A stretch of 64,000 bases of DNA from Thuidium tamariscinum. Taxonomy: Eukaryota > Streptophyta > Bryopsida > Hypnales > Thuidiaceae. Below the pieces are notes generated by a model. The model saw only the letters and a list, made by a program, of their open reading frames with translations. It had not been told where the DNA came from and did not search any database. Shown here in pieces: positions 15,238 through 57,899 of this stretch; position 1 is the first letter of the stretch; the number at the start of each line of letters is the position of its first letter. The stretch is taken from contig OX344755.2 of the NCBI GenBank assembly GCA_947034885.2, positions 25,551,052 through 25,615,051 of the forward strand, read 5' to 3'. The position numbers and the translations under genes were made by a program.

Positions 15238-15241
15238 TTAA

Positions 15242-16184
15242 CCCCTAAAGCCCTCAATTGCAATTTTGGCAAGGTAACAATTTCGGACAACTCATTATGA
15301 ATGGAGATTCTATTTTTTTGTTTAAAATTTTCACAAAATATCTTTCCCAGGAATAGCTATAAGGCCCAACAATTTTCATAACTTTTGACTATATCATGGT
15401 TAAAAAGTTATAGTATAATATGTCTTATTTTTTATTCAAAGGATAGACCGAGCAACTAAAAAAACTTCTATAAAAATTATTTTTTTGAGAAATAAAAAAT
15501 TTGAAATTGGTTTATTAGATTTATATCTATAAAGATAGCTTTGAATCAATCCATTTTGATCGATGAGATGAAAGTTATGAGGAGTTTTAGTTTGAGGTAG
15601 TTTGCGGGTAGTTACGGAATTTCTACTCTACAAAAAAATTTGATATCCTTTCATTAATTCAATTTTTTATATTTTTGAAAAAAGATTAAAACACTTGTGA
15701 AGATTTTTTATTAAGATATTACAACCATTGGGATTGGTATTTTTCATTTCCATAAATAAATTGTTCACAATTTATTTATTTATAATCATTTTCTATTTCT
15801 TCTACTTACTATTTTTTTCTTATATGTTGTGCAATTCCAAATGATTTGAAATTTCTTGAGCATGTAGCTATTTTGCATTGAAGAGTGAATTCAAAGAGTA
15901 ACCACCATTTTGAGCATTTATTCATACAAATGTGATCTTGTGAAGTGCAACCACCTGAGTTTTTGCACAGCTAAAAAAAGGATTTTTGTCAATGCAATTG
16001 TTAATATCTTGCAATCTACATAGCGAAATTTTTTGACATCTTCCCCACATCTTTTCAAAACACCTTACTACAAGATCCTATGGTTATATTTGTCAAGGAA
16101 AAAAATTCTAAAATTTTGCACTCATATTAAAAATTGTTGTTTTGGAGTGTTTTTGATGAAAACATAGTCAAAAACTTTAAGGGG
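15242..16184 (-). mobile_element. TTAA-family element, intact (copy A2, 943 bp)
   Basis: The borders are TTAA (15,238-15,241) followed by CCCCTAAAG, and CTTTAAGGGG followed by TTAA (16,185-16,188). The four-base sites match on both sides, as expected for a target duplication. The terminal inverted repeat is short (about 9-10 bp). The body is homologous, in reverse, to the copy at 20,743. It encodes no protein, so it is non-autonomous. Confidence 0.7.
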
Positions 16185-16559
16185 TTAAGCAATCATATTT
16201 TGAAGTCTAGAATATTGGTGCTTTTTTCAAATCCGACAGTAAGAAGGTATCACCAAAAACTGAGGCTATGGTCGGCAACCTTGTAAGGCATTCTAAAATG
16301 CCCGGTGATACAATCCATAGGTTTATTCATGATTTTTCTTGGTCACTCTGCTCTGAGTTCATTGCTGTACAAATTTTTCCTTAATTTTATTATTTTTGAG
16401 AGTTTTATATTCTCCTGTAGTCTATGCTCCTCCAATATTGCATTGTTAGCTTCAAAATTGAAGCTAAGTTTTGTGGTCTGGTATGTATATTACAGAAGCT
16501 CGATGAATAGCTGTTTTTGACTGAAAGTTTGACAGCAAGAATCATTTACACTGGATCAA

Positions 16560-16700
16560 ATTTCAAGAGATAGTAAGGGAGGAGGTTTGTAAGCTGACAT
16601 AACATTCAGTAGCAGGAGAGCAGACTGCCTCATTCTCGACAGAATGATGTGGAATATTCCACATCATTTCGTCACAATTAGTAACTACTGATTTGCATTC
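16560..16700. repeat. Family G repeat with a 26-bp perfect palindrome
   Basis: 16,643-16,668 is a perfect palindrome centred on TGGAATATTCCA. The flank (GAGGCAGTCT.. and ..CTGAATGTTATG on the other strand) matches the flank of a double palindrome at 44,641-44,760, in opposite orientation, so this is a dispersed repeat and not a chance palindrome. Confidence 0.55.
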
Positions 16701-16899
16701 TCATTTGTGCGGGGAGGCTTGTCATGGTATGCAGGTTCTGAAATGCAGTTGGGCATGCCTAATTGGATGTTAATTGTCTCTTAGGCGAGTTAATTCAATT
16801 CAGTGAACCAATATTCAGCCTGCTGTCAGGGTTTCAGTGAAACTAAAATTTCAAACCAAACTTGTTAGGGACGGAATTCTTCTATTTACTTTCGAGAGA

Positions 16900-17205
16900 G
16901 CAAAAGGTAGTCTGCTCTCCTGCTATTGAATGTTGTGAAACTGAATTTTGAAGTGGCGAAACTTCTTGAACTATTCTTCAATAAATTTTCCTCAAAAGAC
17001 GAGTGGAATTGGCATCTAACCCAAGTTATTTCATATTTTTGGAAGCTTTGTGGAATTAGTTACGAATTGAAGTCAAAACGGCGTAGGGCTCTAAAACCGC
17101 CCTCACCTTCAAATAAACATTTTTTTGTACATTCTTGTAAAGATGAAAAAGAAACATGTACAAAGAGTTTAAGAACCTAAGCGGTTTTAGAGCCTCCTCC
17201 CTAAG
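16900..17205. mobile_element. Family F element with internal hairpin (copy 2)
   Basis: It has the same block order as at 14,020: AGACGAGTGGAATTGGCATC, then TTTCATATTTTTGGAAGC, then a hairpin at 17,088-17,193 whose arms begin CTCTAAAACCGCC and end GCGGTTTTAGAG. The 84-aa ORF over it is accidental. Confidence 0.55.
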
Positions 17206-18984
17206 AATTAATCATAATAGAAACCCCAGTTTAAAATAGGAGTGTCAAAAGGAGGTATAATTGAGAATAGTAGAAAAAAACACCACACCAAACTTTTCTT
17301 GACCTTACTTTTGGTGCTCCAAGGAGTTTCATCCAATGGTTTTCTTTTTCAAACTTTGGCTCCTAGTCTTGCATTGCCTATACTTTATGATTAATTCTAC
17401 TGAGTTCTAAATATTATTTTGATTCCACTATAAGAAACCCATGTTTTTTTGTGTGTCAAGATTTTGCATTGGAATGTTGCATGTGATGTTTTTCCACTTC
17501 AAAATAGACATCAATTTACTTGTGTTGCTATGGACTTGCCAAAAACGTGTTGTGCTAAGGCAAAACATGACATGTAGAAGCTCGGACATAAAAAGAAACC
17601 CTAATCAATGGATCCTCAAAGTTTGCCATGTGGCTACCACCTAGGCATGGGAATGCCAACATGGAAGATTTTTCACTCATTGCACATCAATGATGTGGCA
17701 CTTGACGTAGCACTGACATGGCATGCCATGTAGTAATCAAAAATGGATGATGTGGCATCTAAATATGCTGAGGTGGCATGCCTAGTTAGCACAATTTTGT
17801 GCCACTTGAAAATTTTGAATTATTTTTAGAGACATCAACTTAAACATTTTAATGATTTTTGGGATGTTAGCTCAAACATTCAAACATTTTATGAGATGAT
17901 TTTTGAAACATCAACTTGAATATCTAGATGTTTTACAATGTTAGCTTAGATGTTGACATTTCTTTATAAATGCACATTGAATTGTCCAATTTAATTTAGG
18001 TGAAAAAAATGATGTCACCTTTGACATCTTAGTCATTGAATGCAATATGGAACATGGTGTCAATGTGTACAATCCTATCTATCCACCATAATGCACATAT
18101 GCATTTCAAAATAATTACTAAATACATGTGCAATGCAAGTATAATGTCTACTAAAGCATATCATATAATACACTATACACAAGATTCAATACATCACTTA
18201 CAATACATCATACACACACCATATTTAATACTTCATACAATTTACACATTACAATATACACTATATTTCACCTCATAAGGCATTTGCCTTTGAATATATA
18301 AGTAGGAGAACTCAAGCTCTTTATACATGTTCAAAAGTGGAAGGTAAGACAAACCATATGGGACATTGTCTTAAAATGCAGAAATTGGGGTTACAAGTAT
18401 AGTTTTAGACTACATTTAGGCATAGTAGAGCAATTTTTTTCAAAATAATTTCAACTAAGAAAAGTTGGTAATTAAAGCTAATTTTCATCTCCAAAAATCT
18501 GTTTTAGATTTCAAGTCTTTAACTAAAAGTTATGGGCAAATTTAAAAGGCCAATTGGAAGGGGTAGTTTCTTTGGCATTTTTTTTGACATTTTCATTGAC
18601 ATTAAATCTAATATCCTTTCAAAACTAGTGATGTTGTAGAAGACATGCCATTCCTTATTACATTATTACACTTGGTGTCTCAATGAATATGTTCATGTTG
18701 TTCACAACATTCAAACAAAGGCATTTGTGTTAAGATTTTATCTTTACATTCTAGAAGACATACCTTATTAATAAACTAGAATTTCAACCTTTGGTTTTGA
18801 AATTTATCTAATAATGATTATAAGTTTCTATTACCAAAAACTTTCATCTCAAATAACAAGTGGTATGTATTCTGAAAAAGGTTGAAAAATGAATTGAAAT
18901 GGCATATTTTTTAACTCAAATAGTTGTAGAGATCACATTTAGATGACTATTGCATCAATAATCAAGGAAAATAAAATCTCAATA

Positions 18985-19400
18985 TGAAAGTTTTTGTCTT
19001 ATATAGTATAGGAGTGAAGAAGTTATTTTTAGCTTTACAATGTATCTGTTTACTTAAAAAATTTATAATTATTTACTGTTAATAAGAAAAAATATCAATA
19101 ATTCAAAACTTAAACTTTCAAAATAAGAAAATCTATTCATATTTTTTTCGAGCATTTAAATGTACTCCTTATATATAAATATCTATAAGTAAATAAGTAT
19201 CTATATGTATCTATATGTAAATTTACATACATTTAGGCATTCCACCTTTTAAAAATATGAATAGATTTTACTACTTGAAAGTTTATGCTTTGAATCATCA
19301 ATATTTTTATTTGTTCATTGTAATTAGTTACAAATTTTTGGAATAAGAGAATACACTCAAGAAATAAAAATAACTATCACACCCCTACATTACTATATTA
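18985..19400. mobile_element. Long-hairpin MITE
   Basis: An imperfect inverted repeat of about 415 bp centred near 19,195. The outer arms pair TATAGTATAGGAGTGAAGAA with its complement near 19,380-19,400; the inner arms pair CTTTCAAAATAAGAAAATC with GATTTTACTACTTGAAAG. The loop holds TATCTATATG repeats. Non-coding. Confidence 0.55.
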
Positions 19401-19897
19401 GATAAAAAAATCGTGATAAACATGAATGAAAAATTATAAAAAATTATTATCTATTAAAAATCAATTATCAAGTAATTATGAGTAAAGAAAATAATGTGGG
19501 CTTTTTTAAAATTCTTGTTGAAGACATATGTAGTCGTTGGAAGTGGCTCTCCTTATATTTTGCGTACACCTATAGTAATGACTTATTTAAAAGGGGACTA
19601 TTTACCTTGCAAAATTCATGAAAAAATATAATATTTTTTAAATTAAAGATAAATTTCGGTGATTAATTGTATCATATTAGTACTTATAATTTTTTTGGTG
19701 GGCATTTAAAAATGGGATATGTTACTTATTCCCTAAAAGACCATCTCCCTTCAAAGGACAAATGGGATTTGAGGTAGGTACCTACAAGTTCAAATTTTAT
19801 CTTGATTTTTTAGAATTTTATTTGAAGATAGAAAGTTTGATTATCTTGATGGGAATATAATTTTTTTTCAATTGATGCCTGGGAATAAAATTTATGC

Positions 19898-20250
19898 CCA
19901 AATAAGCTCAAAATAAGGGAGAGCTGGCAATAAAACAAATTTTCAAAATTTGAATTCTGAGAAAAATAAAAATTTCTTCTCATAGATTATATTTTTGTTT
20001 ATATGGGAAGCTTTGATTCATTCCATTTAGATTTGTCATAAAAAAGTGATGGACAATCTTGCTTTTCTGGCAATTTGATCATCTTCTTTAAAGATTAACT
20101 TGTAGTATTCAATTTTGAATGCAATTTTTACTATTTATCAAAAAATAAATTTCCACATGGTTTTTTTTTTTTCTAGAACAATCCCACCATTAGGATTAGT
20201 GCATTCTAATTCCACCTTATAGATATTAATTATTTAACTTTTCCTTTTAT
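19898..20250 (+). mobile_element. Family C fragment
   Basis: It shares 'gattcattccatttagattt', 'agttatggacaatct'-like and 'aatcccaccattaggat'-like blocks with 29,870-30,240 and 49,230-49,465, and in reverse with 46,040-46,400. The copy at 49,091-51,025 shows the complete ends. Here they are not clear. Confidence 0.4.
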
Positions 20251-20302
20251 TTCATACCTACTTCTATATAACAATATTTTAAAGAATTAAAATAATTATT
20301 TT

Positions 20303-20520
20303 TTGGACTTTTCCTACACCCCACTTTTTTTCCTTATCCTCATTTCTTCCATATGCCCAATTTTTTTCTTGCAGTCCATTTTTCTCTTTATCTCCATTTT
20401 TTTCCTTATAGACAATTCTTTATTTGCACCCCTTTTTTTCCTTATCTCCACTTTTTTTTAATCCCCAATTCTTTTTACACCCTCTTTCTTTGCTTAAATC
20501 CAATTTTTTCCCACTTTATT
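20303..20520 (+). repeat. Polypyrimidine tract with degenerate 30-35 bp units
   Basis: About 220 bases almost entirely T and C on the + strand, built from units such as CCTTATCTCCATTTTTTTCC repeated with changes. The 65-aa ORF across it (rich in Phe, Tyr, Pro, Leu) simply reads the repeat. Confidence 0.6.
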
Positions 20521-20742
20521 GAAATTGTGAAAGTACACTATTATTTTTAATCAATATTGAGGATTATGTATGAAAATAAATGAAAAAAAGGCAAACAAGA
20601 TAAAAATAACCCTAAACCAATAACAATTTTGCTTCCAATTTTGCAATCAAGGAAGAAAATTAACAATACCAAAATCCAAACTTTGAATTGAAAACCCTAG
20701 TTGAAATATATACACTCAATTTGTGTGATGTAATTGCAATAA

Positions 20743-21686
20743 CCCCTAAAGGTTTTTGACTATGTTTTCACCAAAACTGCTTCAAAACTGTCATTTTTTA
20801 GACAACTACCAAATTTTAAGAAAAAACATTTTTGGACAAAAGTAACTATATAATAGTTTAGAGCATAAGTTTAAAAAGATGTGGAAAAATATTCATCAAT
20901 TTTCACCATGTAGATTGCAAGATATTAGTGTTTGAAGTGACAAAAATCCTTTTTTTACCACTGTGGGAATCCGGACAGCTGCACTTCACAAGGTTACATT
21001 TGTATGAAAAAAATTTCAAATTGGTGGTTACTCTCTAGATTCATTCTTGAAAGCAAGTTGGCTATATGCAAAAAAAATTCAAATCATTTGGAGTTGTAAA
21101 ACATAGAGGAAAAAAATAACAAGTACAAAGAAGTAGAAAATGAGCCAAAACACTAAATTGTAAACAATTTATTTATGGAATTGAAAAATTCTGATCCCAA
21201 TGGTTAAAATGCTGTAATAAAAAATCTTCACCTATTTCAATTATTTTTATCAAAAAATATTAAAAATTGAATTAAATAAAGGATTTCAAACTTTTTTTGT
21301 AGTGTAGGAATTTTATAACTAGCTACAAACTACCTCAAACTAAACCTCCTCATAACTTTTGACTCAATAATCCAAATGGAATGATTCAAAGATTCTTGCA
21401 AACACAAAACTTGAAATAAACTATTTCAATTATTCATTTTTTCAAAAAATTATTTTTAAAGAAGTTTTTTTATTTGCCCAGGCTGCCCAAAGATCAAAGG
21501 AAATCACATATCATGCAATAACTTTTTGACTATGTAGTCAAATGTTATGAAACTTGTTGGACCTTAAAGATACTCCTTGGGCGCATGTTGTGTGAAAATT
21601 CCAAAGAAAAAGAATAAAAACTCCATTCATAGTGAGCTGCCCAAAATCACTATATTGCCAAAAAACGGAGTTTGGTCCTTTAGGGG
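20743..21686 (+). mobile_element. TTAA-family element, intact (copy A3, 944 bp)
   Basis: It starts CCCCTAAAGGTTTTTGACTA and ends GGTCCTTTAGGGG. It is flanked by ATAA on both sides (20,739-20,742 and 21,687-21,690). The matching change from TTAA to ATAA on both flanks favours a true four-base duplication. The body carries blocks used to recognise other copies, for example GGAATGATTCAAAG and CAATTTATTTATGGAA. Confidence 0.7.
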
Positions 21687-22139
21687 ATAAAAGCCTAAAA
21701 ATATTTTGAATTGAAGTCACCATCTTTCTTTCTAACACCTTCCCAAAAAAACTTCAATCCTATCATTAGATACATGACCTTGGATACTAAATTTTAAAGT
21801 ATTTTTTGCATATACCATATGTACCTTGCAATGAAATATTCTATATAAAATATGGGCAAAACTTTATGACAAATCACCCCATTTATGAATACATTTAAAG
21901 CTTCATCTGGTACCTTTTAACCCTCTTTTTTGTACTCATATTTGCATATACTATTTTACATGTACTATTCACATAATTTATAGTATTGTGTCTAACCCTA
22001 TAGTACATATAATCATGTTTCACAATTTTCAAGCACCCTATGATAAATATAATTTGCTTACAAATTTTACGTGCAAGGAATATATTAAATCCTATATTTT
22101 ATTGCATGTTGTTCCTATGTTTTTCAAGAATGCTTGCCC

Positions 22140-23190: not shown

Positions 23191-23872
23191 ACATGAAAGC
23201 CCTTGTTGATGGTCATGTTATAGTCATGCTTATATCAAAAAAGACATCATTAATAGCTTGCACAAGGTTTGCTTGCCCTTTTTGATGTTATGAATTGCAC
23301 AATGAACAACATGTGCTTTGATGTTATAATTGCAAGCAATAAATAGCTATTTTGCTAGAAGTAATGTCTCTAAAAACATCTTTATGTCCAATATGACATC
23401 TAAAAAAACATCCAAAGTTGTAACATAGGTCTACCATGACTACTACATACTATGTTCACATCACATAATTTCTACGCCATCGGTTTGCGTTTGATGCCAA
23501 GTCACAAAATTTTCCACACCACCTACCCATTTTCCTCTTTTTTACACTAGACAGTCATTTTACTTCTAATCGAACTAATATTTTGTTGATTATTTTTAAT
23601 TAACTTTGACCAAGGATAATGATGTAGCTATGAATTTTTTCTTGGATGATCTTAAAAACATCTTTATGTCAACAACCATGTTTTAGACTACATTATTGTT
23701 TTTGATAAGACCAATTTGTTGTGACTATAAATTAGTATGCTTTCTACAACATCTAATCAAAATCCTCCCTTTTTTAGCCTCCATTCACTAGACATCCCAA
23801 TGTTTTATGAGACATACGATGTTATTTTAAACATGCTATGTTTTTGGCTTGACACCAAAAAAAACCACAATT

Positions 23873-27390: not shown

Positions 27391-28351
27391 TAATAAAATT
27401 TGCCATATTTATACATATATAGAAAACTTTGAATCATTCTATAATGAGTCAAAAGTTATAAGGAGTTTTTACTTGTACCTAGTTATAGATTTTGTAATCT
27501 AAAATAAACTTTGAAGTTCTTTATTTAATTAAAATTTTAATATATCTTGAAAAAATAAATGCAGAGGATGTAGATTGTTTATTACAACATTGCAACCATT
27601 GAAGTTGGCATTTTCAATTCCATGACTAAATTCTTAACAGTTTCATACTTTGAGTCATCTTTCATTTTTTTCTATTTACTATTCCATTTATTTTTTTCCC
27701 TATATATTGTACAATTCCAAATGATTTAAAAAATTTCAAGCATGTAGCCAACTTACCTTGAAGAATGAAGGTAAAAAAGCACCACCATTTTGGACATGTA
27801 TTCATACAAATGTGAACTTGTGAAGTACCGTTTCCCAGTTTTTTTCAAGACCAAAAATAGAATTTTCATGAATTTGAAACCTCATACCTTACAATCCATG
27901 TTGCGGAAATTCTAGAAAATTTTCCTTCATGTTTCCAAGGAGGTCTTTTTCATTTTTTATAAAGTGCCAAAGTGGCAATATAAAGTTATAGAGGTGCTTC
28001 AAATTTCAACATCCATCCACATATAAGACATAAAATATCACATTAACACACATCTCCTACTCATAATTTTGTTTTCATCTACAATTTGGCATTTTCATCT
28101 AAGATCTCTTTTTTAAATTGGATTTTTTCAACAAAAAATTTCACAATTTGTTGCCATTTTTTAAACAAGTTATTTTTTTCTCATGCAATTGGGTACTAAA
28201 AAGTCAGAAAAAGCCTTATCCTCAAATCAGCATACTAAAAGATCCTATGGTTACAGTGTTTGAGAAAAAAAATACCAATACTTAGTACTTGTATTAGAAA
28301 TGGCAATTTTAGAGCATTGTTGGTGAAAATGTAGTCAAGGAACTTAAGGGG
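27391..28351 (-). mobile_element. TTAA-family element, left end unclear (copy A4)
   Basis: It matches reversed copies through TTTGAATCATTC, CTTTGAAGTTCTTTA and CACCACCATTTTGGACATGT, and ends GGAACTTAAGGGG at 28,351 followed by ATAA. The left terminus is lost or lies further left in diverged sequence. Confidence 0.55.
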
Positions 28352-28355
28352 ATAA

Positions 28356-30600: not shown

Positions 30601-30894
30601 TCATTAGGAAGTAATTCTATTTTCCTACATGGGGAATTTTTTTCCTTGAACAAACTTATCCAACAAATATGCCCCAATGCTTAAGTGGTTGGAAATGGGT
30701 TGCTATCCCATACCTTCCCCCCTTGTAGCATTGCCTTTGTATGGAATTAAAGTAGAGGTATCCCTTGTCAATTACTTAAGCAATTTTTAAGCAAACTATG
30801 AACAATATGAGGCAAATCAAATTTTGCCATGTAGGAAGATAGGAAATATAGAGATTGCAAATTTTTTAAAGTTTTATTCCCAAAATTGAAATTA

Positions 30895-31211
30895 CTGTGG
30901 ATTTGGGGAGCAAAAAAGTTGATGGGGCTAATAGACAATGTCTAAACTCTTCCTCCAGACGGCCATTTCATGATTGTTCTTGAAATTGTTCCCAATATTG
31001 TTGATTGTTGTCAAGCCAAAAATTGTCTAAAAATAGAAAATAAAAAAATTGGTCAATGAAATGTGTAAAAAATGTCCTTTTAAAAAGAATTAATGATGTG
31101 GCATGGTCTCAACCACGTCAAATTCTTGTGTTTCTATGTTCCCATAGTAGTTTTTAAATTCCCACAATCTCAACACTCATAATCTTCAAAAGGTCTCAAA
31201 TCCCCCCTAAT
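30895..31211. mobile_element. Family B element, degraded (copy B6)
   Basis: The right end reads AAAAGGTCTCAAATCCCCCCTAAT, and the interior has TGATGTGGCATGGTCTCAACC, as at 57,040. The left end is only partly preserved (ATTTGGGGAGC near 30,901). Confidence 0.45.
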
Positions 31212-32918: not shown

Positions 32919-32922
32919 TTAA

Positions 32923-33830
32923 ATTCTTTGATTATATTTTCACCAAAATCCGTCCAAAATTGCCATTTCTAATACAAGTACCAAATTTTGAAGAAATTGT
33001 TTTTTTAGACACATACAACTATAGGATCTTGTAGTATGTTGACTTGAAAACATGTGGGAAAAATTCCAAAAATTTCCATTACATTCATTGCATGAATTGA
33101 GGTTTCAAGTTCACAAAAATCTTCTTTTGGGCTATGCAAAAAAACAAGTGGTTGCCCTTTACAAGGTCACATTTGTATAGAAAAATGTTGAAAGTGGTGG
33201 TGCTCTTTTGGTTTCATTCTTCAAGGAAAATTAGATACATGCTTGAAAAATTTTCACATCATTCAAACTTGTACAATATATAGGAAAAAAATAGTAAATA
33301 AAAAAAGTAGATGACTCAAAATACTAAATTGTTGATAATTCAGTTACATAGTTGAAAAATGCCAATTTCAATCATTATAGCATTGTAAAAAACAATCTAC
33401 ATCCAATGATTTTTTTTTTTCCAAAAAAACTGAAAATCTAGTCAAATGGAGGACTTCAAAGTTTATTTTAGAGAAAAGAATCTAAAATTACTTGCAAACA
33501 AAAAGTCCTCATAGTTGTTGACTCATTGATCAAAATGAAATGATTCAAAGCTTTTCATGTGTTTGTTTGTTTCTTTGTCTCTCTCTCCAGACTATATATG
33601 TTTATGAAAAAAGTGATTTTTTCAATATACTTGAATTGTTCTTTTACAAAAGCAAATAACATAAGATATAATTTCTTACTCATATTTCCAAATATCTTGA
33701 GTTAGTGCACAAGTAAGATATTCCTTGTCTACACCTTCTATTAAAGTTTGGGCTCAAAACATAGAAATTTCTAATGATATGTACTTGCCCCAAATTATTA
33801 TATTGCTAGATTTAGCACATTGATGCTTTT
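32923..33830 (+). mobile_element. TTAA-family element, tips decayed (copy A5)
   Basis: TTAA at 32,919-32,922 precedes a decayed tip (ATTCTTTGATTATATTTTCACC in place of CCCCTAAAGG..). The body matches A3 and A8 through the GGATCTTGTAGTATG, CACATTTGTATAG and AAATGAAATGATTCAAAGC blocks. The right tip is not clear. Confidence 0.5.
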
Positions 33831-38420: not shown

Positions 38421-38879
38421 CTTTAGCCACAATACGTTAGACTATTTGATCATTCCCCTAGATTTGAACCCCTATACTATACTCCTGGGTTTTGTGGAAT
38501 TTATACAAAACTTAGACTACAGTTTCCAACTAGGGATCTATGTCCAACCAAGCCTAAAATATATTTCTAAAAAAGTTTAAACTTTGTTTTTTCCTCCTTT
38601 TGAAGATTGGGCCCAATAAGATCATGATACATATCTCAAAGTAGTGAACAAGAAAGTAGGAAGTAGTGAGTGGGGAAGTACTTAGTCTATGATTGGAATC
38701 GGAAGAATCTAGACATTGTCTATTAGTCCAAACAAATTTTTGGCTCCAAAATATCACAATAATTTCAATTTTGGGGATAAAATCGTGTGAAATTTGCAAT
38801 CCTCATATTTCCTATCTTCCTACATGGCCAAAATTTTACTTGCCTCATATTGCTTACAATTTGCTTGAAAATTGCTTAA

Positions 38880-39785
38880 CCCTGTAAGACTAAAGTACCT
38901 TTTTTGGCAACATAAATTTTTTTGACAAGTATGTGTAACTATAGATTTTTATGTTTGGGGACCAAAATTTAATAGAGGGTGTAGATGAGGAATATCTTTA
39001 AAGACGAATCATTTTTATGACTTTCGATTACATGGTTAAAAAAAATTTATTTCTCAACTTGAGTAGTTCGGGTTGATTAAAGAAATCTCTTTTTTTTAAA
39101 ACAATAAATTTGAAATTGGTTTTGTAGATTTTTATGTATGTGAAAAGCTTTAAATCATTCCATTAGGATTAATAAGTCAAATGTTATGAAGAGTTTTAGT
39201 TTGCAAGTAGTTATGGATTCCTTAGTGTAAAATAAACTTTGAAGTCCTTTATTTTACTCAATTTTCAATATTTTTGGAAAAAAATAAAAACATTGGGTGT
39301 AGATTATTCATTACAGCTTTTGAACCATTGGAATGATCAAGTTTCAATTTTACAAATAAATTCTTAACAATTTAATATTTTAAATCATTTTCTATTTCTT
39401 GATACTTATTATTTTTTTCCTATATGTTGTACAATTCCAAACAACTTGAATTTTTTCAAGCATGTAGCCAACTTGCCTAGAAGAATGAATCCAAAGAAGT
39501 ACTACCATTTTGGACTTTTTTTCATGCAAATGTGAGCTTGTAAAGTGCAGCTGTCCGTCTTTAGGAGGGCCAAAAAAGAATTTTGGTCAATTCAAATGCT
39601 CATATGTTGTAATCTACACAATAGAAATTTTTGAAATTTATTCTTCATCTTTTCAAACTAGCATACTACAAGATCCTACAATTATATGTGTCTAAAATTA
39701 ATACTTTCTGAATATTTGGTACTTGCTTTAGAAATGACAGTTTGGGAGGGATTTTGGTGAAAACATTGTTATGGAACTTTAGTGG
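38880..39785 (-). mobile_element. TTAA-family element (copy A6, 906 bp)
   Basis: Left: TTAA (38,876-38,879) then CCCTGTAAGACTAAAG. Right: GGAACTTTAGTGG at 39,785 then ATAT. The interior matches A2 and A7 in order and orientation, for example CACTACCATTTTGG-like and GCATGTAGCCAACTTGCC blocks. The tips have point changes. Confidence 0.6.
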
Positions 39786-40678
39786 ATATGTGATTGACTA
39801 TGAGTACTTCTACCTTAGTTTACTCAAGAACCATTGCCAATCATCCAACTCATAGTCTGAATACACATTTAAATCTTTCACAAAGTGTAGCCAATCACAT
39901 ATTGCCACATAGTCAACACTAGTAGAAAGCCCTGTTTTTTTAGACAAGGGTGTGAACATGCGTTATGTTGAATGAAACATCACACACGTCTATTGTGCAT
40001 GTCTAGAGAAACCCGTCAAGTTCGACAAGCTAAAAACATAAGAAATTCTGGAAAAACATGCCTTGTTTTTAGAGCAACATCATAGAAAACATGGACAAAG
40101 AAGTTGTCAAAAGTGTGCCATTTGGCAGCCACGTAAGCGCCACGCAAGCAAATAGTGCCACATGGGATTTTTGGGCACCTCACAAAAATTTTGAGAAAAT
40201 TTTAATATTGTTTTTAGCAATGTCAACTGAGACATCTAGAAAAATTTCAACTTTGTTTTCAGCAACATCAACTTAGACACCTAGAAATTTTCTAAAACAT
40301 CAATTGGTGCATCCAACGGAGTAGGCAAGATTGGTGCAAATTTATTACATAATAATAATGATTTTTCATTATCAATCAATTAATTATGATTTAGTTCATT
40401 ATTAATTAATTAATTATTAACTAATTAGTTTATTATTTACTTGTAAGAATGAAGATGAAAGAGGTCATATTTATATCTATGGTCCGCCCTTGTAGAGACA
40501 AAAGATATGGAATAACTGGAATGAACTCAATGAAGAAACTTAACCATTGTAAATCTTAGATGTTGTTATAGACATTGTTTTAACTGTTATTTTAGATGTT
40601 GTTGCAAACATATAGATGTTGTATTTAACATATGGGTGTTTTTTCAAACAATCTACTTTGAATATAGTTCTTGTTTAA

Positions 40679-41599
40679 CCCTTTAAAGACCAACTGAAGT
40701 TGTATTGTTTCAGCAACATAGTGATTTTAGGTAGCTCACTATAAATAGATATTTTTTTCTTTGAAATTTTCAAGCTATATGAAAACAAGGTTTTTTCTTA
40801 ATGCCTAGTACTTTTAAAAAACTTTGACTACATGGTTAAAAAATTCTTATATGATATGTAACTTGTTTTTAATCAAGCAATTTGGGAAAATAAACAAAAA
40901 TCACTTTTTTCATAAACAAAAATTTGGAATTGTTTTTTCAAATTTATACACGAGAAGAAATCTTTGAATCATTCTGTTTTGATCAATGAGATGGAAGTTA
41001 TGAGTTTTAGTTTTGGATAGTTATAGATTTTCTACTTTAAAATAAACTTTGAAGTTCTTTATTTAACTCAAGTTTTCAATTTATCTTGAAAAAATTTATT
41101 TCTTAGAGTTAGATTGTTTATTAAAACAATAAAACCATTGGAATTGATTTTTTAAATTCCATAACTAAATTCTTAACAATGTATTATTTTGAATTGTTTT
41201 CTACTTCTTTTTATTTACTATTTTTGTCCTATATGTTGTACAATTCCAAATGATCTTAAAATTTTCAAGCATGTAGATAGCTTGCCTTTAAAAATGAATC
41301 CAAAAACAACACCAACAACATGGAGAATTTTTCTTACAAATGTGACCTTGGAAAGCGTAGCTTCCTTGTTTTCTGGAGGATCAAAAAAGAATTTTTATCA
41401 ATTCAAATGCTAATATCTTGCAATCTAAATAATGGAATATTTTGAATTTTTTTCTCCACATCTTCTCAAATCAACACACAACAAGATTGTATGGTTACAT
41501 ATTTCTAAAAATATATTTTTCCTAAAATTTGGTATTTGTACTAAGAATGGCTAATTTTAGAGAGGTTTTGGCAAAAACATAGTCAAGAAATTTCAGGGG
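40679..41599 (-). mobile_element. TTAA-family element (copy A7, 921 bp), nested in CACTA
   Basis: Bounded by TTAA (40,675-40,678) before CCCTTTAAAGACC and by TTTCAGGGG before TTAA (41,600-41,603). Reverse orientation, homologous to A2 throughout. It sits inside the 39,917-42,806 CACTA element. Confidence 0.65.
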
Positions 41600-41639
41600 T
41601 TAATATATCCCATATGAGTTATTGCACAATGGGGTCCCA

Positions 41640-45471: not shown

Positions 45472-45666
45472 TTACTCTTTTTTTTTTCCCAGTTACACTA
45501 TTTTATTTTTATTTTATTTTATATTTTATTTTATCTTTAAAACTTTGACACAATAGTTGAATTTCACAGCTCTCACCATCACTTGGAAAGGGATGGGAGG
45601 GAGGATGGTCATCTTCATGTAGGGAGACTCATCAGATTGGTCAATTTACAGGAAGCTTAACTTAAC

Positions 45667-46480
45667 CCCTAACGGACGAAGGTCACTTTTCTGTCAAAAA
45701 TCACTCAAAACTGTCGATTCTCAGTTATGTTCATTCAAGAAAATAAAAATAAATAAAAACTAATCAAAATTTAAGTACAGGGTCTTGTACTTTACTTGTC
45801 TCAAATGACGTGGTAAAAATTTCATGAAGTTTGATCTTAGAAACTGAAAAAATTTTGAATTCAAAGTCGGAAAAAAAGTTTTTTGAAGATGAACTTCATT
45901 GGCTTGCAATTTCAAATGACTTTGAGTGCCATTTGTGTTAAATCTTGCACTATGAATATTGAATTAAAAAAAATTGTATTGAAGAATTGAGTTGAAAGTT
46001 TAAGAAAAAAAACTCAAAAAAGTCGCACATGATTTTCATTTCTTAAAGAATTGTTAAGTAGAAGTGGGCTCAAGATTGAAAGAAAAACTAAATTGTAAGT
46101 AGCTCTAAGATGGGATTGAAACACAATAATCCCTATAGTAAGATTGTTCTAGCAAACAAAATCAATGTTTTCAAAAAAATTGTGAGAAATTGTGAAAATT
46201 GCATTTAAAGGTGAATTTAGTAAGTTATTTTTTCAAGAAGATGCTCAAATTGTCCCCCAAACAAGATTGTTTATAACTTTCACATCACTAATTAATTCAA
46301 ATGGAATGAATTGAAGCTTCAAATGTAAACATAAATATCATTTTGCTACAAAAAGAAATTTAATTTTTAATTTTTAATTTTTTTATGGATTTCTTTTTCT
46401 ACCCAATAGTGTGAAAATTATATTGAAGATGGCATAACTTATGCTCTGAGGCACCTATTGAAATTTTTAAAAATTAAATT
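45667..46480 (-). mobile_element. Family C element, right border lost
   Basis: TTAA (45,663-45,666) is followed by CCCCTAACGGACGAAGGTCA, which pairs with the right tip of the copy ending at 51,025. The body runs in reverse through the GGGATTGAAACACAATAATC and 'attcaaatggaatgaattg' blocks. The far end could not be found. Confidence 0.5.
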
Positions 46481-46649
46481 TTTACAAAATTAATAAATTT
46501 TATTATCTTATGAAATTTTTTTAAAAAGATATATTAAAAATTGAGACTATAAGAACCTACCTAAAACCCATTTTATTCTCCAAGGAAACATTGGTCCTAT
46601 ATAGGTTAAATTAAATTATTGGGCAATCACAACCTTCTTACTACAAGAT

Positions 46650-48259: not shown

Positions 48260-48400
<141 letters not shown>

Positions 48401-49090
48401 TTGTCATGGTGGATACAAATTTGTATGGAAACCAATATAATCACATGTCTTTTGAAGCTCTAAGACTTTTAAAGCTCAAATATATACATACAATACATAT
48501 ATACATACATACATACATGACTATTTTGATTTTCTTTTTCAATGAAGCCTTCCTAAGATACACGACATGGGTGCATTTTGATACTATACATTGAAATTAC
48601 TATGGACTATGTTGAGGTTTACATTTCATCTATAATGGAGGTTTACTAGGCATTGAGGTGCATCAATTTATTCTATTAGTAAGGGGTTACAATATTATTT
48701 CAATTAGCACTAATCTAAAATATTTGTTGTGTGACAATGGTAATTAGCATCATATGCAATAATAGTATGAATTAGTGTACAACATGTGAGTTTGGTTCTA
48801 AAGGTTCAAATTGTTACTATTGACACTAATTTATCACACTATTTTGAATTAGAGTAGGTTAAAATTTTACTCTATTGAACCAATATCCTTCAAAACAAAA
48901 TTTTGTTGTAATATTGAATTTCAACATGATGTTATTTTTTTCCCTCAGTATTAGAACAAATTTGTATAGCTTAAAGCTCTACATGTAAGTGTCTCTTTGT
49001 ACTAGTGCATCATGTTTTATATCTTGGTATAGCTTCTTATTTGTATCCAATGTTTCAAAATATCAAGATTTGGCTCATTCATCACTTCAA

Positions 49091-51025
49091 CCCCTAAAAT
49101 CCCATTGTCTACTTGGGGGACAAAATGGATATTAGGCACGTCCTTATGGTACCAATATTGATGAAGATTTTTTTTAAGCATTTGATGAAGATAGGAAGAC
49201 ACAATAGGTCTAATAAAATATAATTTTTAATTCAATTGGTGCCAAAGAAAAAAAGTTATAGCACAAAGTTTTTTTAGATCTGGCAAGTAGAGACTTCCTT
49301 ACAAAAAAAAATTTAAATACAAAGAAATTAGTTTTTTGTAGATTATAATTTTATACACCAAGGAAGCTTAGACCCATTCCATTTAGATTTGTTATGTGAA
49401 AGTTATGGACAATCTTATTTTTCAAGCAATTAAAGCATCTTCTTGAAAAAATAACTTACATGCGGGTGATCGCAAGAAACACTTGTACTATTTTCACTTA
49501 TATGTTTTGGGTGAGTAGTTTTTTAGCTATAACTTTTGTGTTTTAGTTCCAAATGACTCAAAATTTACAAGAAATTTACTCATAACTATTATATCTATTC
49601 TTTTTTTAAAAGATTTTTCGAAAAGATTTTATTATTTTTAATCAGCCTCTGATGTTTTGTCACACTTTCCAATTTAGGTGTTTTTAGTACTATTTTGAAC
49701 CCAAAAAAACGAATTTTGAGGTGAAATTTGGAAAAGATGTTTTTTAATATACTTGTAGCTATTGAAAAAATAATTTTTTTAAATAGTTAATTTTATGTGA
49801 TGTAGAAGTCCTCAAAGAGACCTTTGTATTGCTTTCTTTTTGAAATGTATGAAATATTATTATTATTATTATTATTTTCAAATCTCATTACCTAATAGTC
49901 TTCTCAAGTGGCCAATTTTAATTTTAATTCTATATTTTCTTAATTTAAACATTGAACTATCTATTTTCTTCACTGGAACTCTATATCAAAAATTCTAATG
50001 AAGAAAATACAACTTTGACATTTTTATTTGTAAAAAATAAGAAAAATAAAATGAATAAAATCTAAAAGTTATCCATCTGAGAAGACTTTTTGGTGATGAG
50101 ATATGAACAAAAAATCCACCAAAATAATGTTTTATATGTTTCAAAAAAGGTCTCTTTGAGCTTTTCCACACCACATGAAATTAACTATCTAAAAAAATTC
50201 CTTTGGTCAATAGCTACAAGTATATTATTAAAAAATCCTCTCCAAATTTCACCTCAAAATTCGTTTTTTTGGATTCAAAATAGTACTAGAAATCCCTAAA
50301 CTGGAAAGTGTCACAAATGAACAAAATTGACTTTTAAATATGAAATGAATTTTTAAATTTTTTGAAAAATAAGGTTATCAATTGCAATCAAGACATCTAG
50401 GAATAGTTTTTTTGTTTTTTTTGCATTGAGTTTATAATTCAAAAGTTAGAGCCTTGTTGAAGAGGGTAAAAAAAACCCGCTACAAATAGTTCAAGTGTTT
50501 CTTGCAATCACTTTTCAAAAAAGTTTATTTGACAAGATCAAGTATATTTGTTGGAACTATCTCAGTGTTCAGATTATTGTGTTTCAATCTCATCTTAGAG
50601 GTTATTAATGATATAGTTTATGGTTCAATCTTGGACCTAATTCAACTTTGTAATTTCTTAAAGAATAAAAATTGAGTGGTTTTTTTTTTTGAAATTCTTT
50701 CTTGGAACTTTAATTTGATTCTTCAACACAAAAAATAATTTAATTCAAAGTTTGTAGTCAAAAAATTTCCACAAATGGTAGTTGAAGTTGGAAGCTAGCA
50801 TTTGAAAAATGCTTTATTTTCCAACTTTGAATTCTAATATCTCTCACTCTACAGGGATAAACTTTGTGAAATTTTTACCACATGATCTTAAACAAGTGAA
50901 GTGCAAGATCTTATGGTTTGATTTTGAAAAAAAAATGTTTTTTTTGCTTTCTTGGGTGAGTGCAATAGAGATGGCAGTTTGGAATCATTTTTTACCAAAA
51001 AAAAATGACCTTCAGATTGTAGGGG
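49091..51025 (+). mobile_element. Family C element with CCCC..GGGG ends, interrupted by a foldback
   Basis: The left tip CCCCTAAAATCC follows TCAA; the right tip GATTGTAGGGG at 51,025 precedes TTAA. Removing the 1,046 bp foldback at 49,466-50,511 leaves 889 bp, in line with other TTAA-family elements. Body blocks TTCCATTTAGATTTG and TTCAATCTCATCTTAGAGG are family C markers. Confidence 0.55.
49466..50511. mobile_element. Foldback element: about 1,046 bp imperfect palindrome
   Basis: The left end GTGATCGCAAGAAACACTTG is answered by CAAGTGTTTCTTGCAATCAC at the right. Further inside, TTTTGAACCCAAAAAAACGA is answered by CGTTTTTTTGGATTCAAAA, and AGTCTTCTCAAGTGG by CCATCTGAGAAGACT, so the arms continue to a centre near 49,990. 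The loop side has an (ATT)n run (49,856-49,875). No coding capacity. Confidence 0.7.
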
Positions 51026-51029
51026 TTAA

Positions 51030-52170: not shown

Positions 52171-52173
52171 ATA

Positions 52174-52604
52174 TAAGGTAGACCAACCTATTACCACCCT
52201 GATTTGCAATCGGACTATCTTGGGGCCAATTGGAAGAGGGACACATATGTTTTAGAGGTATGTGTATGTTTCACAAATCAAATCCAGGTGGAATTATAAA
52301 GTTTTGATCACAATTGTAATTTTTGAAGTGTTTAGCCCTAAATTACAAAAGTGCCCACAACTAGGGTCATAACCACCCTAATATCAACCCGTAACCACCT
52401 TCTTATGTCCCTATAAGCATCTAGGTATTCACCAATCAGCTATTGCCACATTACCCTAAATGACATAAATGCATTGATTTTGTCAAATTTCTAATCAAAA
52501 TTGGCTCATTTATGGATAGATTTGGATGGTGGAATGGGTGGAAATGGGGCCAAAAATAGGGTGATGGAAATGGGTTGGAGACGGAATTAGGTTGGTCTAC
52601 CTTA
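52174..52604. mobile_element. Inverted-repeat element, family L (copy 1)
   Basis: The ends AAGGTAGACCAACCTA and TAGGTTGGTCTACCTT are inverted; about 430 bp. A relative of similar length is at 53,615-54,016. Confidence 0.55.
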
Positions 52605-53262
52605 CCTAAGATAAGAGGTCTTTAAATGGAGCAGGTGTTAAAATGGAGCACCTCCTTATATGTGCAAAATTTGGATGTGTTTCTTTTTTGTAGCCTTCAG
52701 TATTGTACAAATTGTGTACATTTTAGGAGGTACTTCATTTTAGAGTCCTATACCACTTTAACTTCAAAGTTTTATAACTAATTTCATAAAGCTCAAAAAA
52801 ATATAAAACGACATAGGATAAATGTCAATTCTACTTGTCTTTCAAGGAAAATTTACTGATGAATATTTTTAGAAGTTTTACCTCTCTAAAATTCAGTTGC
52901 AGCCCTTAGATGGTCGATTATAGGACCTCTTATCTTAAGGTAACAGGTCCTATAATGGACCATCTAAGGGCTGAAACAGAATTTCAGGGAAGTAAAACTT
53001 CTAGAAATATTCATCAGTAAATTTTCCTTGAAAGACAAGTAGAATTGACATTTAACCCAAGTCGTTTCATATTTTTCTAAGCTTTTTTGAATTAGTTATC
53101 AAATTTTGAAGTTGAAAGGACATAGAGCTCTAAAATGGTGCCCTAGCTAAAATGTACACTATAAGTCCACTACTGAAGACTATGAAAAAGCAACATGTAC
53201 AAGTACTATACATTTAAAATAGGGCACCGTTTTAGAACCTACTCCATTTAAGAGCCTTCTAC
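52605..53262. mobile_element. Head-to-head family F pair forming a palindrome of about 650 bp
   Basis: The arms meet near 52,935 (CAGCCCTTAGATGGTC on the left, GACCATCTAAGGGCTG on the right). They stay complementary out to GGTCTTTAAATGGAGCAGG on the left and CCTACTCCATTTAAGAGCC on the right. Each arm itself contains the smaller family F hairpin (TTAAAATGGAGCACC.. and ..GGCACCGTTTTAGAA). A transcript across it would fold into very long double-stranded RNA. Confidence 0.7.
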
Positions 53263-53614
53263 CTTAGTTTCCCACCCCTAGCTAATTTGGAGCACGTGTG
53301 CAAGACAAAAAAGCAATTGTCTTCTTCTCCGCATCCCAAACTTAGTTCCCTACATGAACTGATTCATATTTCATGTGTGCACTAAAATTGTGATGCATTA
53401 AATGACCATGCCTATAGTTTCATCACTAAAGAATAGACAAAGATTGCTTCTAGGGTATATTAGGGTGTACTTCATGTATTTTTTTAAGCTTCTACAATAA
53501 GCTCTGTCTTCAAGCAATGGGCTTGAAGACTTTTAAAGGTTAAGATCATGTTTGTGAGTAAAAATTATGATAATGGGCATGTAAAGTAAGTATTTATTTA
53601 GAAAAGAAGAAATG

Positions 53615-54016
53615 TAAGGTAGAACCACCTATAACCAATCGGCCCCCATAGCCAACTTAATGATGAATGTATTTCCAACGAAGGCTAGAATGGGTTTTTT
53701 TCTCATTTTTTAAGTTGGGACTAAAAGTTCATGGCACATGTTCCAAAGTAGTGTGCAAAAAATTAGAAAAGAGTGAGTAAAAATGTAGTTTTTTGTGTGA
53801 TTGAAATTAGAAGACTCCATAGATTGGCATTTGGTCAAGCACACTTTATGCCTTCCAAAATTCATAGTAATTTCAATTCATGTGATAAAATTACCAAAGT
53901 TTTTGCAATCCCATCATTTTTATCTTTACACCTTTGAAAATATTTATTTTACTTTGCACTACACTAGATCATGCCTAAAATACCTTAAATGATCGGTTAC
54001 GGGTGGTTCTACTTTA
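53615..54016. mobile_element. Inverted-repeat element, family L (copy 2)
   Basis: The left end TAAGGTAGAACCACCTATAA continues to CCAATC; the right end is GATCGGTTACGGGTGG followed by TTCTACTTTA. About 400 bp, non-coding. Confidence 0.55.
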
Positions 54017-54388
54017 GTAGAGGATGTTATATGCATCACCATAAACAGTTGTTGACTTTTCAATGCTAACATGACTCTATGCTATGGGCTACCCATCACG
54101 ACCACCAACACAAGTTGCAACTCATAACCTTCTTTCCTTTTAACTTGCTTCCTACACCTTTGGATCATGAAGATCAAAGGTTGTAATTGAAAAATGGACA
54201 ATTGGTTAATATGTCCGATAACCTACTTGCCGCTATTGCGGCTCGTCGATTATCTAATACATAAACATTTTTAACATATGTAGGAGTTATATTTGGAAGA
54301 AATATACAATTAGGCCAAGATTGCTTTAGGTTTGCAAGCCAAGTGTGTTTGAAATCAAATTTCAAAATATATATAGATATGTATGAGT

Positions 54389-55050
54389 GTTTAATCCCTA
54401 AATGCCCAAGGCCTATTTTGAGCTTCTTGGAATTTGCTCTAAAATGAATAAAATGCCATCATTTTGAAAGTTGTATTGATTTCTTAAAATTGTAACCGTA
54501 AAAATTCAAACTAGACATGATACAGATTGCATTTTAGAATATTGGGAAAAGAATATACAACAACATCACTTATAAAGTGAAAGATTATAATTTTTAACCA
54601 TGAAGGTGTTAAAATTGCAAAAGTGATGTAAAGTATTTCTATCCTCTTTTCACACGCCAAATCAGAGAAGTTGGTGACCAAAAATATATGAGGTTAAAGG
54701 GCCTAATATGCATAACTCCAATGAATTTATGGCTTCTCAAAATCTACTCTACAATTTTTATAAATGAATTTTGAATGTGATTTTTTCTTCAAGATCTAGT
54801 GTATTTGAGGCTCATTTTCAAGAGCTCTCAACACTATGGAAAGTCAAATTTACAATAGGTACCCTTGTACAAAATCTTGAATAGAAAAATCACTATCATT
54901 AATTTTCCAGATCAGGCTTCTGACACTAAAATTAGACTTCTAAAAGAACTTTCCAAAAGTATAAATTACTAAAAATAGTAACTTGGTTAGGTTTTATTTA
55001 ACTTCAAAGTTTTGCAAATACTAAATTCTGATGCCTTGGACATTTAGAAG
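54389..55050. mobile_element. Family K inverted-repeat element (copy 2)
   Basis: The left end CCCTAAATGCCCAAGGCC is answered by GCCTTGGACATTTAG near 55,045. It shares AGCTTCTTGG-side and AAATAGTAACTTGGTTAGG blocks (reversed) with 31,288-31,537. Confidence 0.45.
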
Positions 55051-55594
55051 TTACTCCGTATTGCTCTTTGGCTCAAAAATTAGAAAATATTTCCAAAATT
55101 GTCAAAAAATAATACCTTCTGAAAATAGGTATGCTAATCAAAATTTATCTAGTTTTTAGAATATACAATTGTAATATAATGGGGCTTGCATAGAAAAATT
55201 GAGCTCTAATAGTAATGTATATGTGAGATATAGCCAAGCAAAGAGTGACGCATTGTTATTTTAAGGGGGACTAAGTTTTTGACAATTTGTCTTGGTCAAG
55301 CTTTTTAACTCTATAATCCAAATTCTACTTTTGAAAAAGATATGAAGCATTGAAATTTAACTAGAGCTTGAAGTTCAAAAGTATGCAAGTTTTTCGGAGT
55401 AGAAAGTTTTTTATAGATGATTTTTAATGTAATTTTTTGGACAAAGGATAAAGGATTTTTCATTTATTTTAATTTTAGATTTTTGAATGCATTTCTAGTG
55501 GATGGTAGAAGAAATGATCTTATACAAGTATTATTGACCTCTTTTCATAAGAAGATGCTATACAAATAATTGACAATAGAAGCTCTTTAGTATA

Positions 55595-56190
55595 ATTTTG
55601 TCAACTTGTACAATGGGGTACCATTCAAAATGGCATTTTTGCATTTGGAAGGAAAGAAATTTCAAATTTGCCAACTTTGATAGCCTTCCAAGGGCTAAAA
55701 TATTGTTTTTTTACCATATGATTTTTCTTACAAGATCATCTCTAAGTTAATAGAATACATGCCAAATTTCAAAGATAAAGGGTTTACAAAAAGAAAGATA
55801 TTTGAAATCTACCAACATGTGTAGCAATGGAAAAAATTCATTGTTGCCAACTTTGCCAACCTCCCAAGGATTGAAAAAAAAAATTCTTCTGTCATGAAAT
55901 ATTTGTCATAGAATCATCTTTACGTAGATAATATTTTTTGCCAAATTTCACAGTCAAAAGATTCACATAAAAAAAGATATTGAAAATCTACCAACATGTA
56001 TTCTTGTAAGAATGGTTTTCTTAGAACTTGGTATAGTGTCATTTTGTGAGTCAAAGTTTGGCACAAATGTAAGAAATCATTCTTACAACTACACATGTTG
56101 GTAGATTTTGAATATTTTGTTTTGGGTGAACCTTTTAGATTTGAAATTTGGCACAAATGTCAATAATATAAAAATGATCTCAACTTGCTT
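55595..56190. repeat. Tandem array, about 180 bp units (family J, locus 2), with inverted unit
   Basis: Two direct units (GCCAACTTTGATAGCCTTCC.., ATCTACCAACATGTGTAG) are followed by a partial unit in opposite orientation (CTACACATGTTGGTAGAT-like near 56,090). Same family as 41,640-42,190. The 78-aa - strand ORF here is a repeat artefact. Confidence 0.6.
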
Positions 56191-56663
56191 GTGATCTAAA
56201 TTTTGAACATTTAAATTCTTTAAAAATGTAGTCCTACCAATAAAATGAAGTTTACTAAGTCTAATTTCAATTTGAAATTTTGTAAATTACCTATATTGAA
56301 TATTTTATTGCAATTGAGCCTCGGAGCTTACAACCACGGTGTATTAATTTTTTGATTATAGAATGACAAGGGATTTTATTTTATACTACAATGTTCTAAA
56401 CTAGAATATGTAACAATGAAAAAAAATTCCAAATGCTTTTCGAATCTTTTGTATTTTATATAAATTTAATTCAATCATTTATCAAAAATCCATAATAAAC
56501 TCAAATTATCATCATACTTTTTCAAAATATTAGGACAAGAAGAAGACATGTAATTTCATCTTTGAAATCAAAATAAAATTTCAGTCATATTTTGTACAAA
56601 TATATGGCTATCTAGAATATTGCAATTGTATATAGAGTCTCTAAACGTAGGTTTAGGAATTCA

Positions 56664-57886
56664 CCCCTAAAGGTTTTTGACTGTATTTTCACCCAAAATG
56701 TTTCAAAACTGCAATTTCTAATACATGTGCAAAATTTTAGAATTGTTTTTGATACATGTAACTGTAGGATCTTGTAGTAATGTGGTTTGAAAAGAAGTGG
56801 GAAAAATTTCAGAAATTTCCACTATGCAGATTGCAAGATATTACAATTTGAATTGATAAAAATACTTTTTTTATCCCTTCAGAAACTCAAGTAGTTGCAC
56901 TTCAAAAGGCCACATTTGTATGAATAAATGTTCAAAATGGCATATTGTAAGATTTCAGGGCTCCGGAAGATTGTGAGTTCCTACAGTCTATGAATGCAAA
57001 AACTATTGTGGGAACCCAAAAATGTAGAATTCCAATGTGGTCAAGACCATGCCACATCATTAAATTAAAAAAATTAAAAAAACAAACCTTATTATTCACA
57101 TTTTAGGCTCCAAAATTTATTTTATTTTATTTTATATTTTGGTAATTGGTAGCTAATAGTTCCTCAAACAGTTTTGGAAACAGACCCTAAAATGGCCCTT
57201 AGAAGCCCTCAAATCCCTCCTTATGTGGTTACTCTTTGAATACATTCTTAAAATGCAAGTTGGATATATACTCAAAAAATCCCAAATCCTTTGGAATTGT
57301 AGAACATATAGGAAAAAAATAGTTAGAAAGAAGTAAAAAATGATTCAAAATACTAAATTGTGAACAATTTATTTATGGAAATGAAAAATGCCAATCCAAA
57401 TGGTTGTATTATTGTAATAAACAATCTTCACCCAATATTTTAATTTTTTTTCAAAAATATTAAAAATTGTTTGAATTAAAGGTTTTCAAACTCTTTTTTG
57501 TAGAATAGACATTCTATAACTACCCACAAACTATCTCAAACTAAAACTCCTCATAATCTCTATCTCATTAATCAAAATGGAATGATTCAAAGCTTTCCAT
57601 ATAGATATAAATTTAATAGATAAATTTCAGTTTCTAATTTTTTCAAGAAGTGATTTTTAAAGAGTTTTTTGAGCTGTATGGTTGCCCAAAGATTAAAGAA
57701 AATCACATATCATACCATAAAATTTTAATTATGAAGTCAAAAGTTATGAAAATTGTTGGGCCTTAAAGCTATTCCTTGGACACATACTGTGTGAAAAATC
57801 CAAAGAAAAAGAAAAAGAAAACTCCATTCATAATGAGCTGCCAAAAATTGCTATATTGCCAAAAAATGTTGTTGTTCCTTTAGGGG
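56664..57886 (+). mobile_element. TTAA-family element interrupted by family B (copy A8)
   Basis: It starts CCCCTAAAGGTTTTTGACTG after TTCA and ends TCCTTTAGGGG before TTAA (57,887-57,890). Removing the family B element at 56,944-57,224 leaves 942 bp, equal to the intact copies A2 (943) and A3 (944). The orientation matches A3. Confidence 0.7.
56944..57224. mobile_element. Family B element nested in copy A8 (copy B5)
   Basis: The left end ATTGTAAGATTTCAGGGC and the right end GCCCTCAAATCCCTCCTTAT are diverged forms of the family B ends. It splits the A-family block between CACATTTGTATGAATAAATG and GGTTACTCTTTGAATACATT. Confidence 0.6.
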
Positions 57887-57899
57887 TTAATGTGAGAGA

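Follow-up and report, generated by a model that had tools for sequence, protein, structure and literature searches.

Which class of transposable element lies behind the short, repeated, non-coding elements found at TTAA or similar sites in a 64,000-nucleotide stretch of the Thuidium tamariscinum genome, and what moved them? This stretch, hereafter the window, corresponds to positions 25551052-25615051 of contig C7 in a 363-Mb assembly of 19 contigs. A preliminary description made from the letters of the window had proposed that the elements are non-autonomous and piggyBac-like, and had named a TA-duplicating Tc1/mariner group as the main rival. The analyses reported here support the former proposal. 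The elements are almost certainly non-autonomous derivatives of the piggyBac superfamily, akin to miniature inverted-repeat transposable elements (MITEs), in a moss genome, with duplication of their TTAA target. The evidence consists of the duplicated TTAA, of tips that start with CCC, and of co-resident elements with the same features that code for transposases of the piggyBac family (PF13843), one of which, called T52, has the tips of the short elements.

Two related families of short elements

Self-comparison of the window, together with a profile built from window copies, detected approximately 10 copies or fragments of related non-coding elements of ~0.94 kb (Table 1). Five of them (copies 15242, 20743, 38880, 40679 and 56664) form a single family, which we called family A, with mutual identities of 69-81% in the self-comparison. 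The copies at 49091-51025 and 45666-46605 form a distant sister group, family B, which the family A profile matches weakly (50824-51015, E 5e-14; 46405-46082, E 8e-11; 49091-49416, E 3e-7). The preliminary description had listed six copies as one family. Direct reading of the window confirmed the coordinates, tips and flanks of all six, including the TTAA/TTAA borders of copies 15242 and 40679 and the ATAA/ATAA borders of copy 20743. Five of the six do belong together, and the copy at 49091-51025 falls into family B. That list had also missed one family B copy (45666-46605) and three of family A (27400-28351, 32920-33829 and 9080-9631). Nested insertions account for the excess length of the two longer copies, 56664 (~284 bp) and 49091 (~1064 bp). 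The second of these inserts has inverted ends of its own (GTGATYGCAAGAAACACTTG..., identified by eye) and is probably another DNA element.

The family A profile covers 8323 of the 64000 bases of the window (13%). In a 264-kb region that includes the window, it has 28 matches, family B pieces counted, that cover 14352 bases (5.4%). A DNA search of the genome with copy 15242 returned 41 rows, the best 40 being scored out of 9209 first-look candidates. We fetched 20 of these 41 rows, which are the best matches to copy 15242 and are hence biased toward its subfamily. Genome-wide, the tip pattern A-NNNN-CCCCTAAAGGNC, with one fixed base five places upstream, has 1918 occurrences as against 22 for the reversed pattern, and TTAA precedes 82 of 100 tips among the matches listed, all on contig C1. 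Given the profile coverage of the window, the number of first-look candidates and the excess of the tip pattern over its reversal, family A is not a product of chance.

The consensus of 28 full-length family A copies, 945 bp long, starts with CCCCTAAAGG and ends with CCTTTAGGGG, and these two sequences constitute 10-bp inverted tips. A loose direct repeat, TTTTTGG..AACATAG, was noticed by eye near both ends. We found nothing recognisable in the coding capacity of the consensus, whose longest stop-free stretch, 93 residues, was matched by 11 of 200 base-shuffles. The possibility that family A is a decayed coding element was rejected, as its frames are no longer than those that shuffles give. 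Family A has no transposase of its own and is non-autonomous. The 20 fetched copies are 8.8-12.8% distant from the consensus, and the eight full-length copies of the 264-kb region 12.8-25.6%. The closest of the 378 pairs among these 28 copies is 91.7% identical, and none of the copies compared form a set of identical copies such as that described below for the T49 family. With distances of 9-26% from the consensus and such a closest pair, family A is old by the measure of its sequence divergence.

A four-base target

Borders were counted for matches with E <= 1e-10 that reach the end of the element within two positions. TTAA was found at 24 of 30 left borders and 18 of 31 right borders of family A. 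Among 25 two-ended copies, 16 have TTAA at both borders, and the two flanking 4-mers are equal in 18. By comparison, TTAA represents 18 of 2440 4-mers taken as a control from shifted positions. Sites other than TTAA are also repeated as four bases, i.e. TTAT/TTAT at copy 20743 (in the orientation of the element) and at copy L039, and TTAG/TTAG at copy L081. An inward-facing pair of tips at positions 3299033 and 3299951 of contig C1, presumably of one element, is likewise bordered by TTAT/TTAT. These non-canonical sites separate a four-base target from a TA or a three-base target.

An unoccupied paralogue of the insertion site of copy 38880 is present in the window. The left flank of this copy is 82.7% identical to positions 30776-30953 over 179 columns, and its joined flanks align continuously across the insertion point with the empty version, which has one TTAA. 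Besides the element itself, the filled site has four bases that the empty one lacks. The right flank agrees in register at 23 of 31 positions, a score equalled by 0 of 5000 shuffles and by 1 of 63969 window positions on the plus strand. The TTAA target is duplicated as four bases, as in piggyBac. The preliminary description had taken the ATAA/ATAA borders as a sign of a four-base duplication, and both the additional TTAT and TTAG sites and the empty site, four bases shorter beyond the element itself, agree with it.

Co-resident piggyBac transposases

A genome search with PF13843 yielded at least 116 scored matches out of 658 first-look candidates, with a best E-value of 6e-80. Every row among the matches listed is above the curated cut-off, and there were 0 matches in 14 control genomes. 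The matches are spread over contigs C1-C10, and many of the frames are open. As both the family A and the PF13843 matches lie on C1-C10, we rejected contamination as their source. A search for an autonomous partner with the piggyBac transposase family, recommended in the preliminary description, thus found such loci, one of which, T52, bears the tips of family A.

We read four of the 116 loci (T49, T50, T51 and T52; Table 1) to the ends of their elements. All four are TTAA-flanked elements of 5.1-7.9 kb with CCC tips, and tips that start with CCC and end with GGG are common to family A and the four transposase loci. The four proteins match Pfam DDE_Tnp_1_7, their main frames match PF13843 alone, and they are 37-51% identical pairwise. 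The T50 protein matches the solved structures of piggyBat (9c0f) and piggyBac (6x67). Four acidic residues, D503, D603, D719 and D722 in T50 numbering, are invariant in the four proteins and align with LTIDE, CDN and GVD..D of piggyBac. The putative autonomous partners are thus predicted to code for DDE_Tnp_1_7 (PF13843) transposases with the DDD residues. Six Cys and one His residues that form a C-terminal cluster are also invariant in the four aligned proteins. They most probably correspond to the C-terminal Cys-rich domain of piggyBac transposases. A search for relatives of the four transposases on viral contigs gave 25 pattern matches, none of which was confirmed.

Eleven matches among those listed have an open frame of 1023 residues; ten of them have the same score, and T49 is the eleventh. 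For six of the ten, the sequences of both ends were retrieved, and the comparison bears on the ends. TTAA was found at both ends of all seven T49-type copies, T49 included. In all six further copies, 110 of 110 positions are identical to T49 at each end, and the flanks are different. Identical ends at different TTAA sites are best explained by recent transposition.

Relationship between T52 and family A

T52 has family A's own tips, and its similarity to family A extends further inward. Positions 1-225 of the family A profile match the left end of T52 (E 9e-23), and positions 421-858 a stretch close to its right end (E 2e-13). In BLASTN comparisons, T52 and family A are 69-70% identical over 172 and 145 columns. 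T52 appears to be a relative of family A's partner, not its proven partner.

Family A would most likely have been moved in trans by co-resident piggyBac transposases, and we infer that a T52-like transposase mobilised it. In the mechanism that we propose, a DDD transposase whose C-terminal domain is rich in Cys and His would bind the tips and the subterminal DNA, excise the element and insert it at TTAA. By analogy with the piggyBac of Trichoplusia ni, this cut-and-paste process would leave no footprint.

Alternative explanations

Several observations weigh against this interpretation. Borders are unequal in seven of the 25 two-ended copies, and in three copies of the window (38880, 49091 and 56664; Table 1). 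The right duplicate at copy 38880, ATAT, is two changes away from TTAA. We checked 14 left sites other than TTAA; the right tip was recognisable in six cases, only one of which (L081) has the same 4-mer on both sides. In the other five, the right border is TTAA in four cases and TTCA in one. Such mismatched borders fit later mutation of one side, and they appear to add little to the case for a four-base target. As for the partner, the last part of T52 inside its right tip has no match to family A, only the tip being common there, and only 4 of the 116 transposase loci have been followed out to the element ends. Given this lack of a right-end match beyond the tip, the immediate parent of family A may be another transposase family, outside the loci read. 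The chances are about even that the class is right and the partner is another one, i.e. that an extinct or unread piggyBac lineage, not that of T52, made and moved family A. The distances of 9-26% between the copies and their consensus, the homology of ~70% with T52, limited at the far right to the tip, and the small proportion of loci read to their ends speak for such a lineage. The tips, the left 225 bp and the right-hand stretch that T52 has in common with family A speak for the T52 lineage.

Elements of other superfamilies are far less probable. A Tc1/mariner type that duplicates TA only would turn the elements into ACCCC...GGGGT, with TTAA read as T+TA+A, and by sequence logic the two readings are indistinguishable at TTAA/TTAA copies. 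Nevertheless, the outer T on the left (24/30 TTAA) and the outer A on the right (18/31 TTAA) are nearly fixed, contrary to what a TA target predicts. At the TTAT/TTAT and TTAG/TTAG sites all four bases are repeated, and elements bearing the same tips code for PF13843. The Tc1/mariner rival of the preliminary description is therefore very improbable. Kolobok, the other well-known TTAA-duplicating superfamily, occurs in chlorophytes and rhodophytes according to the parts consulted of PMC9587614, which also give its tips as 5'-RR...YY-3'. The tips are 5'-CC...GG-3' here, and the transposases of the four co-resident elements read belong to the piggyBac family, which makes a Kolobok origin extremely improbable. 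PIF/Harbinger (Tourist-like) MITEs, with a three-base TWA target, are a usual class in plants, and TTA or TAA is contained in TTAA. A three-base target would leave the fourth base free on one side, whereas both sides are mostly TTAA here; the filled site is four bases longer than the empty one beyond the element, and in the four elements read, PF13843 is the only family that the main frames match. We regard such an origin as exceedingly unlikely. Tc1/mariner, Kolobok and PIF/Harbinger were rejected on the basis of target length, terminal bases and the transposases in the elements read, with no genome search made for Tc1/mariner, Kolobok or Harbinger transposases.

Comparison with known piggyBac systems

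Like the co-resident transposase elements, T. ni piggyBac (6x67) and piggyBat (9c0f) combine TTAA, CCC tips, a PF13843 DDD core and a C-terminal Cys-rich domain. The first eight bases of what we take to be the T. ni piggyBac tip, CCCTAGAAAG..., are those of the T50 tip, CCCTAGAAGGAC. The moss elements differ from T. ni piggyBac by their family tips, CCCCTAAA-, and by the long open frames that enclose the transposase and reach 1023 residues in the four read. Family A also differs from it by the absence of a transposase and by its moss host. The size of T. ni piggyBac is given as 2472 bp in the portion consulted of PMC10140906, compared with 5.1-7.9 kb for the moss elements. Kolobok is alike in TTAA duplication and differs in terminal bases and transposase class. 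In animals, e.g. insects, piggyBac-derived MITEs are short, non-coding elements at TTAA that have their tips in common with an autonomous partner. Compared with those, family A elements are ~0.94 kb long, have short tips of 10 bp, lack a long inverted repeat and reside in a land plant.

piggyBac is usually associated with animals, fungi and protists, and reviews are divided on its presence in plants generally. In the parts of the literature consulted, a fern paper has one row 'PiggyBac' (1230 pieces) in a repeat table (PMC6890710), the only piggyBac-like term in PMC10619864 is 'piggybacking', and a 2017 moss paper states that piggyBac 'has yet to be tested in P. patens' (PMC5505980). Among the open-access matches listed, none describes piggyBac elements from a moss, as judged by titles and the beginnings of abstracts. 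Protein databases may well contain moss PF13843 proteins that have drawn no comment.

The kind of element described here, a non-autonomous piggyBac, is known; the host, the number and the recency of the co-resident transposase families are unusual. It is likely that they represent a piggyBac radiation that has long resided in a moss, has diversified and is still mobile, with at least 116 transposase loci (of 658 candidates), lineages ~50-63% apart in protein, non-autonomous copies that probably number in the thousands and one or more families that moved very recently. If so, a piggyBac lineage would be thriving in a land plant and would provide plant-native piggyBac systems; the moss elements may yield plant-native, TTAA-specific tools. 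With at least 116 matches, open frames and identical dispersed copies, the origin of piggyBac in land plants, by inheritance or by horizontal transfer, becomes directly testable.

The host

The preliminary description had correctly deduced a plant source. A SAM_LFY (LEAFY) match in the genome (E 2e-27) assigns it to the LEAFY-bearing line of green plants. Five weaker matches to the LEAFY SAM domain were also present (E 6e-9 to 1.5e-4). A downstream exon codes for the LEAFY DNA-binding domain, whose best match among solved structures is 4bhk (E 7e-71, 6 differences in 106 positions), with 2vy1 at E 2e-50. We take 2vy1 to be PROTEIN LEAFY of Arabidopsis and 4bhk to be that of the moss Physcomitrium, with D as the presumed moss state. 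At two positions where 2vy1 has H and R, the protein has D and C, as does 4bhk; the residues are Q and C in 9fwy and 9g19. According to a review (PMC4701952), two residues, His308 and Arg341 in Arabidopsis, are central to how the LEAFY proteins of algae, mosses and angiosperms differ, and we infer that these are the H and R positions of 2vy1. The closest relationship of the predicted LEAFY protein, with 4bhk, points to a moss host, a label that narrows the earlier one.

Features of the window and other repeats

Table 1. Elements and related features. Window positions are given for all features except the transposase elements T49-T52; borders are listed as left/right.
Feature	Position	With borders	Strand	Characteristics
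Family A fragment	9080..9631		-	profile 61-641, E 9e-78
Family A copy 15242	15242-16184	15238..16188	+	TTAA/TTAA; full profile match 1-944, E 1e-263
Family A copy 20743	20743-21686	20739..21690	-	ATAA/ATAA; full profile match, E 4e-276
Family A copy	27400..28351		+	left end gone, interrupted ~27939-28215; profile 268-815 and 806-944
Paralogous empty site for copy 38880	30700..31000		-	one TTAA vs TTAA + element + four bases
Family A copy	32920..33829		-	ends decayed; profile 6-939, E 2e-142
Family A copy 38880	38880-39785	38876..39789	+	TTAA/ATAT; unoccupied paralogue of insertion site at 30700-31000
Family A copy 40679	40679-41599	40675..41603	+	TTAA/TTAA; profile match
Family B copy 45666	45666-46605	45662..46609	-	TTAA/TTAA; 940 bp
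Family B copy 49091	49091-51025	49087..51029	+	TCAA/TTAA; nested insert ~1064 bp at 49460-50523
Family A copy 56664	56664-57886	56660..57890	-	TTCA/TTAA; split by nested insert
Nested insert in copy 56664	56941..57224		.	~284 bp, not family A; copy 15242 aligns to 57864-57225 and 56940-56664
T49				tips CCCCTAAACGCC/CCCTGAAACGCC; 5.1 kb; TTAA-flanked
T50				tips CCCTAGAAGGAC on both sides; 7.9 kb; TTAA-flanked
T51				tips CCCCTAAGCGCT/CCCCTAAACGCC; 5.9 kb; TTAA-flanked
T52	C1:42.57 Mb			tips CCCCTAAAGGAC/CCCCTAAAGGTC; 7.1 kb; TTAA-flanked; open transposase frame

The family A tip, CCCCTAAA (e.g. at 15242-15251), includes CCCTAAA, which is presumably the plant telomere repeat unit. This is probably a coincidence, and it could matter for repeat masking.

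Another repeat family, with CCCTAAATG-like tips, TTAA-like borders and copies 74-79% alike, is present at 54391-55053 of the window and, in window-based coordinates beyond its end, at 82402-82747, 86433-86735 and 94422-95083. An open frame of 1096 residues that resembles a hAT transposase by eye lies at ~25.469-25.472 Mb of contig C7 (window coordinates -81981 to -78694). It adjoins two family A copies, and a second copy, ~93% identical in DNA, is found near window coordinate +122451. Finally, a short frame on the minus strand of the window (63436-63840) resembles, by eye, the zinc-binding end of the reverse transcriptase of plant long interspersed nuclear elements.

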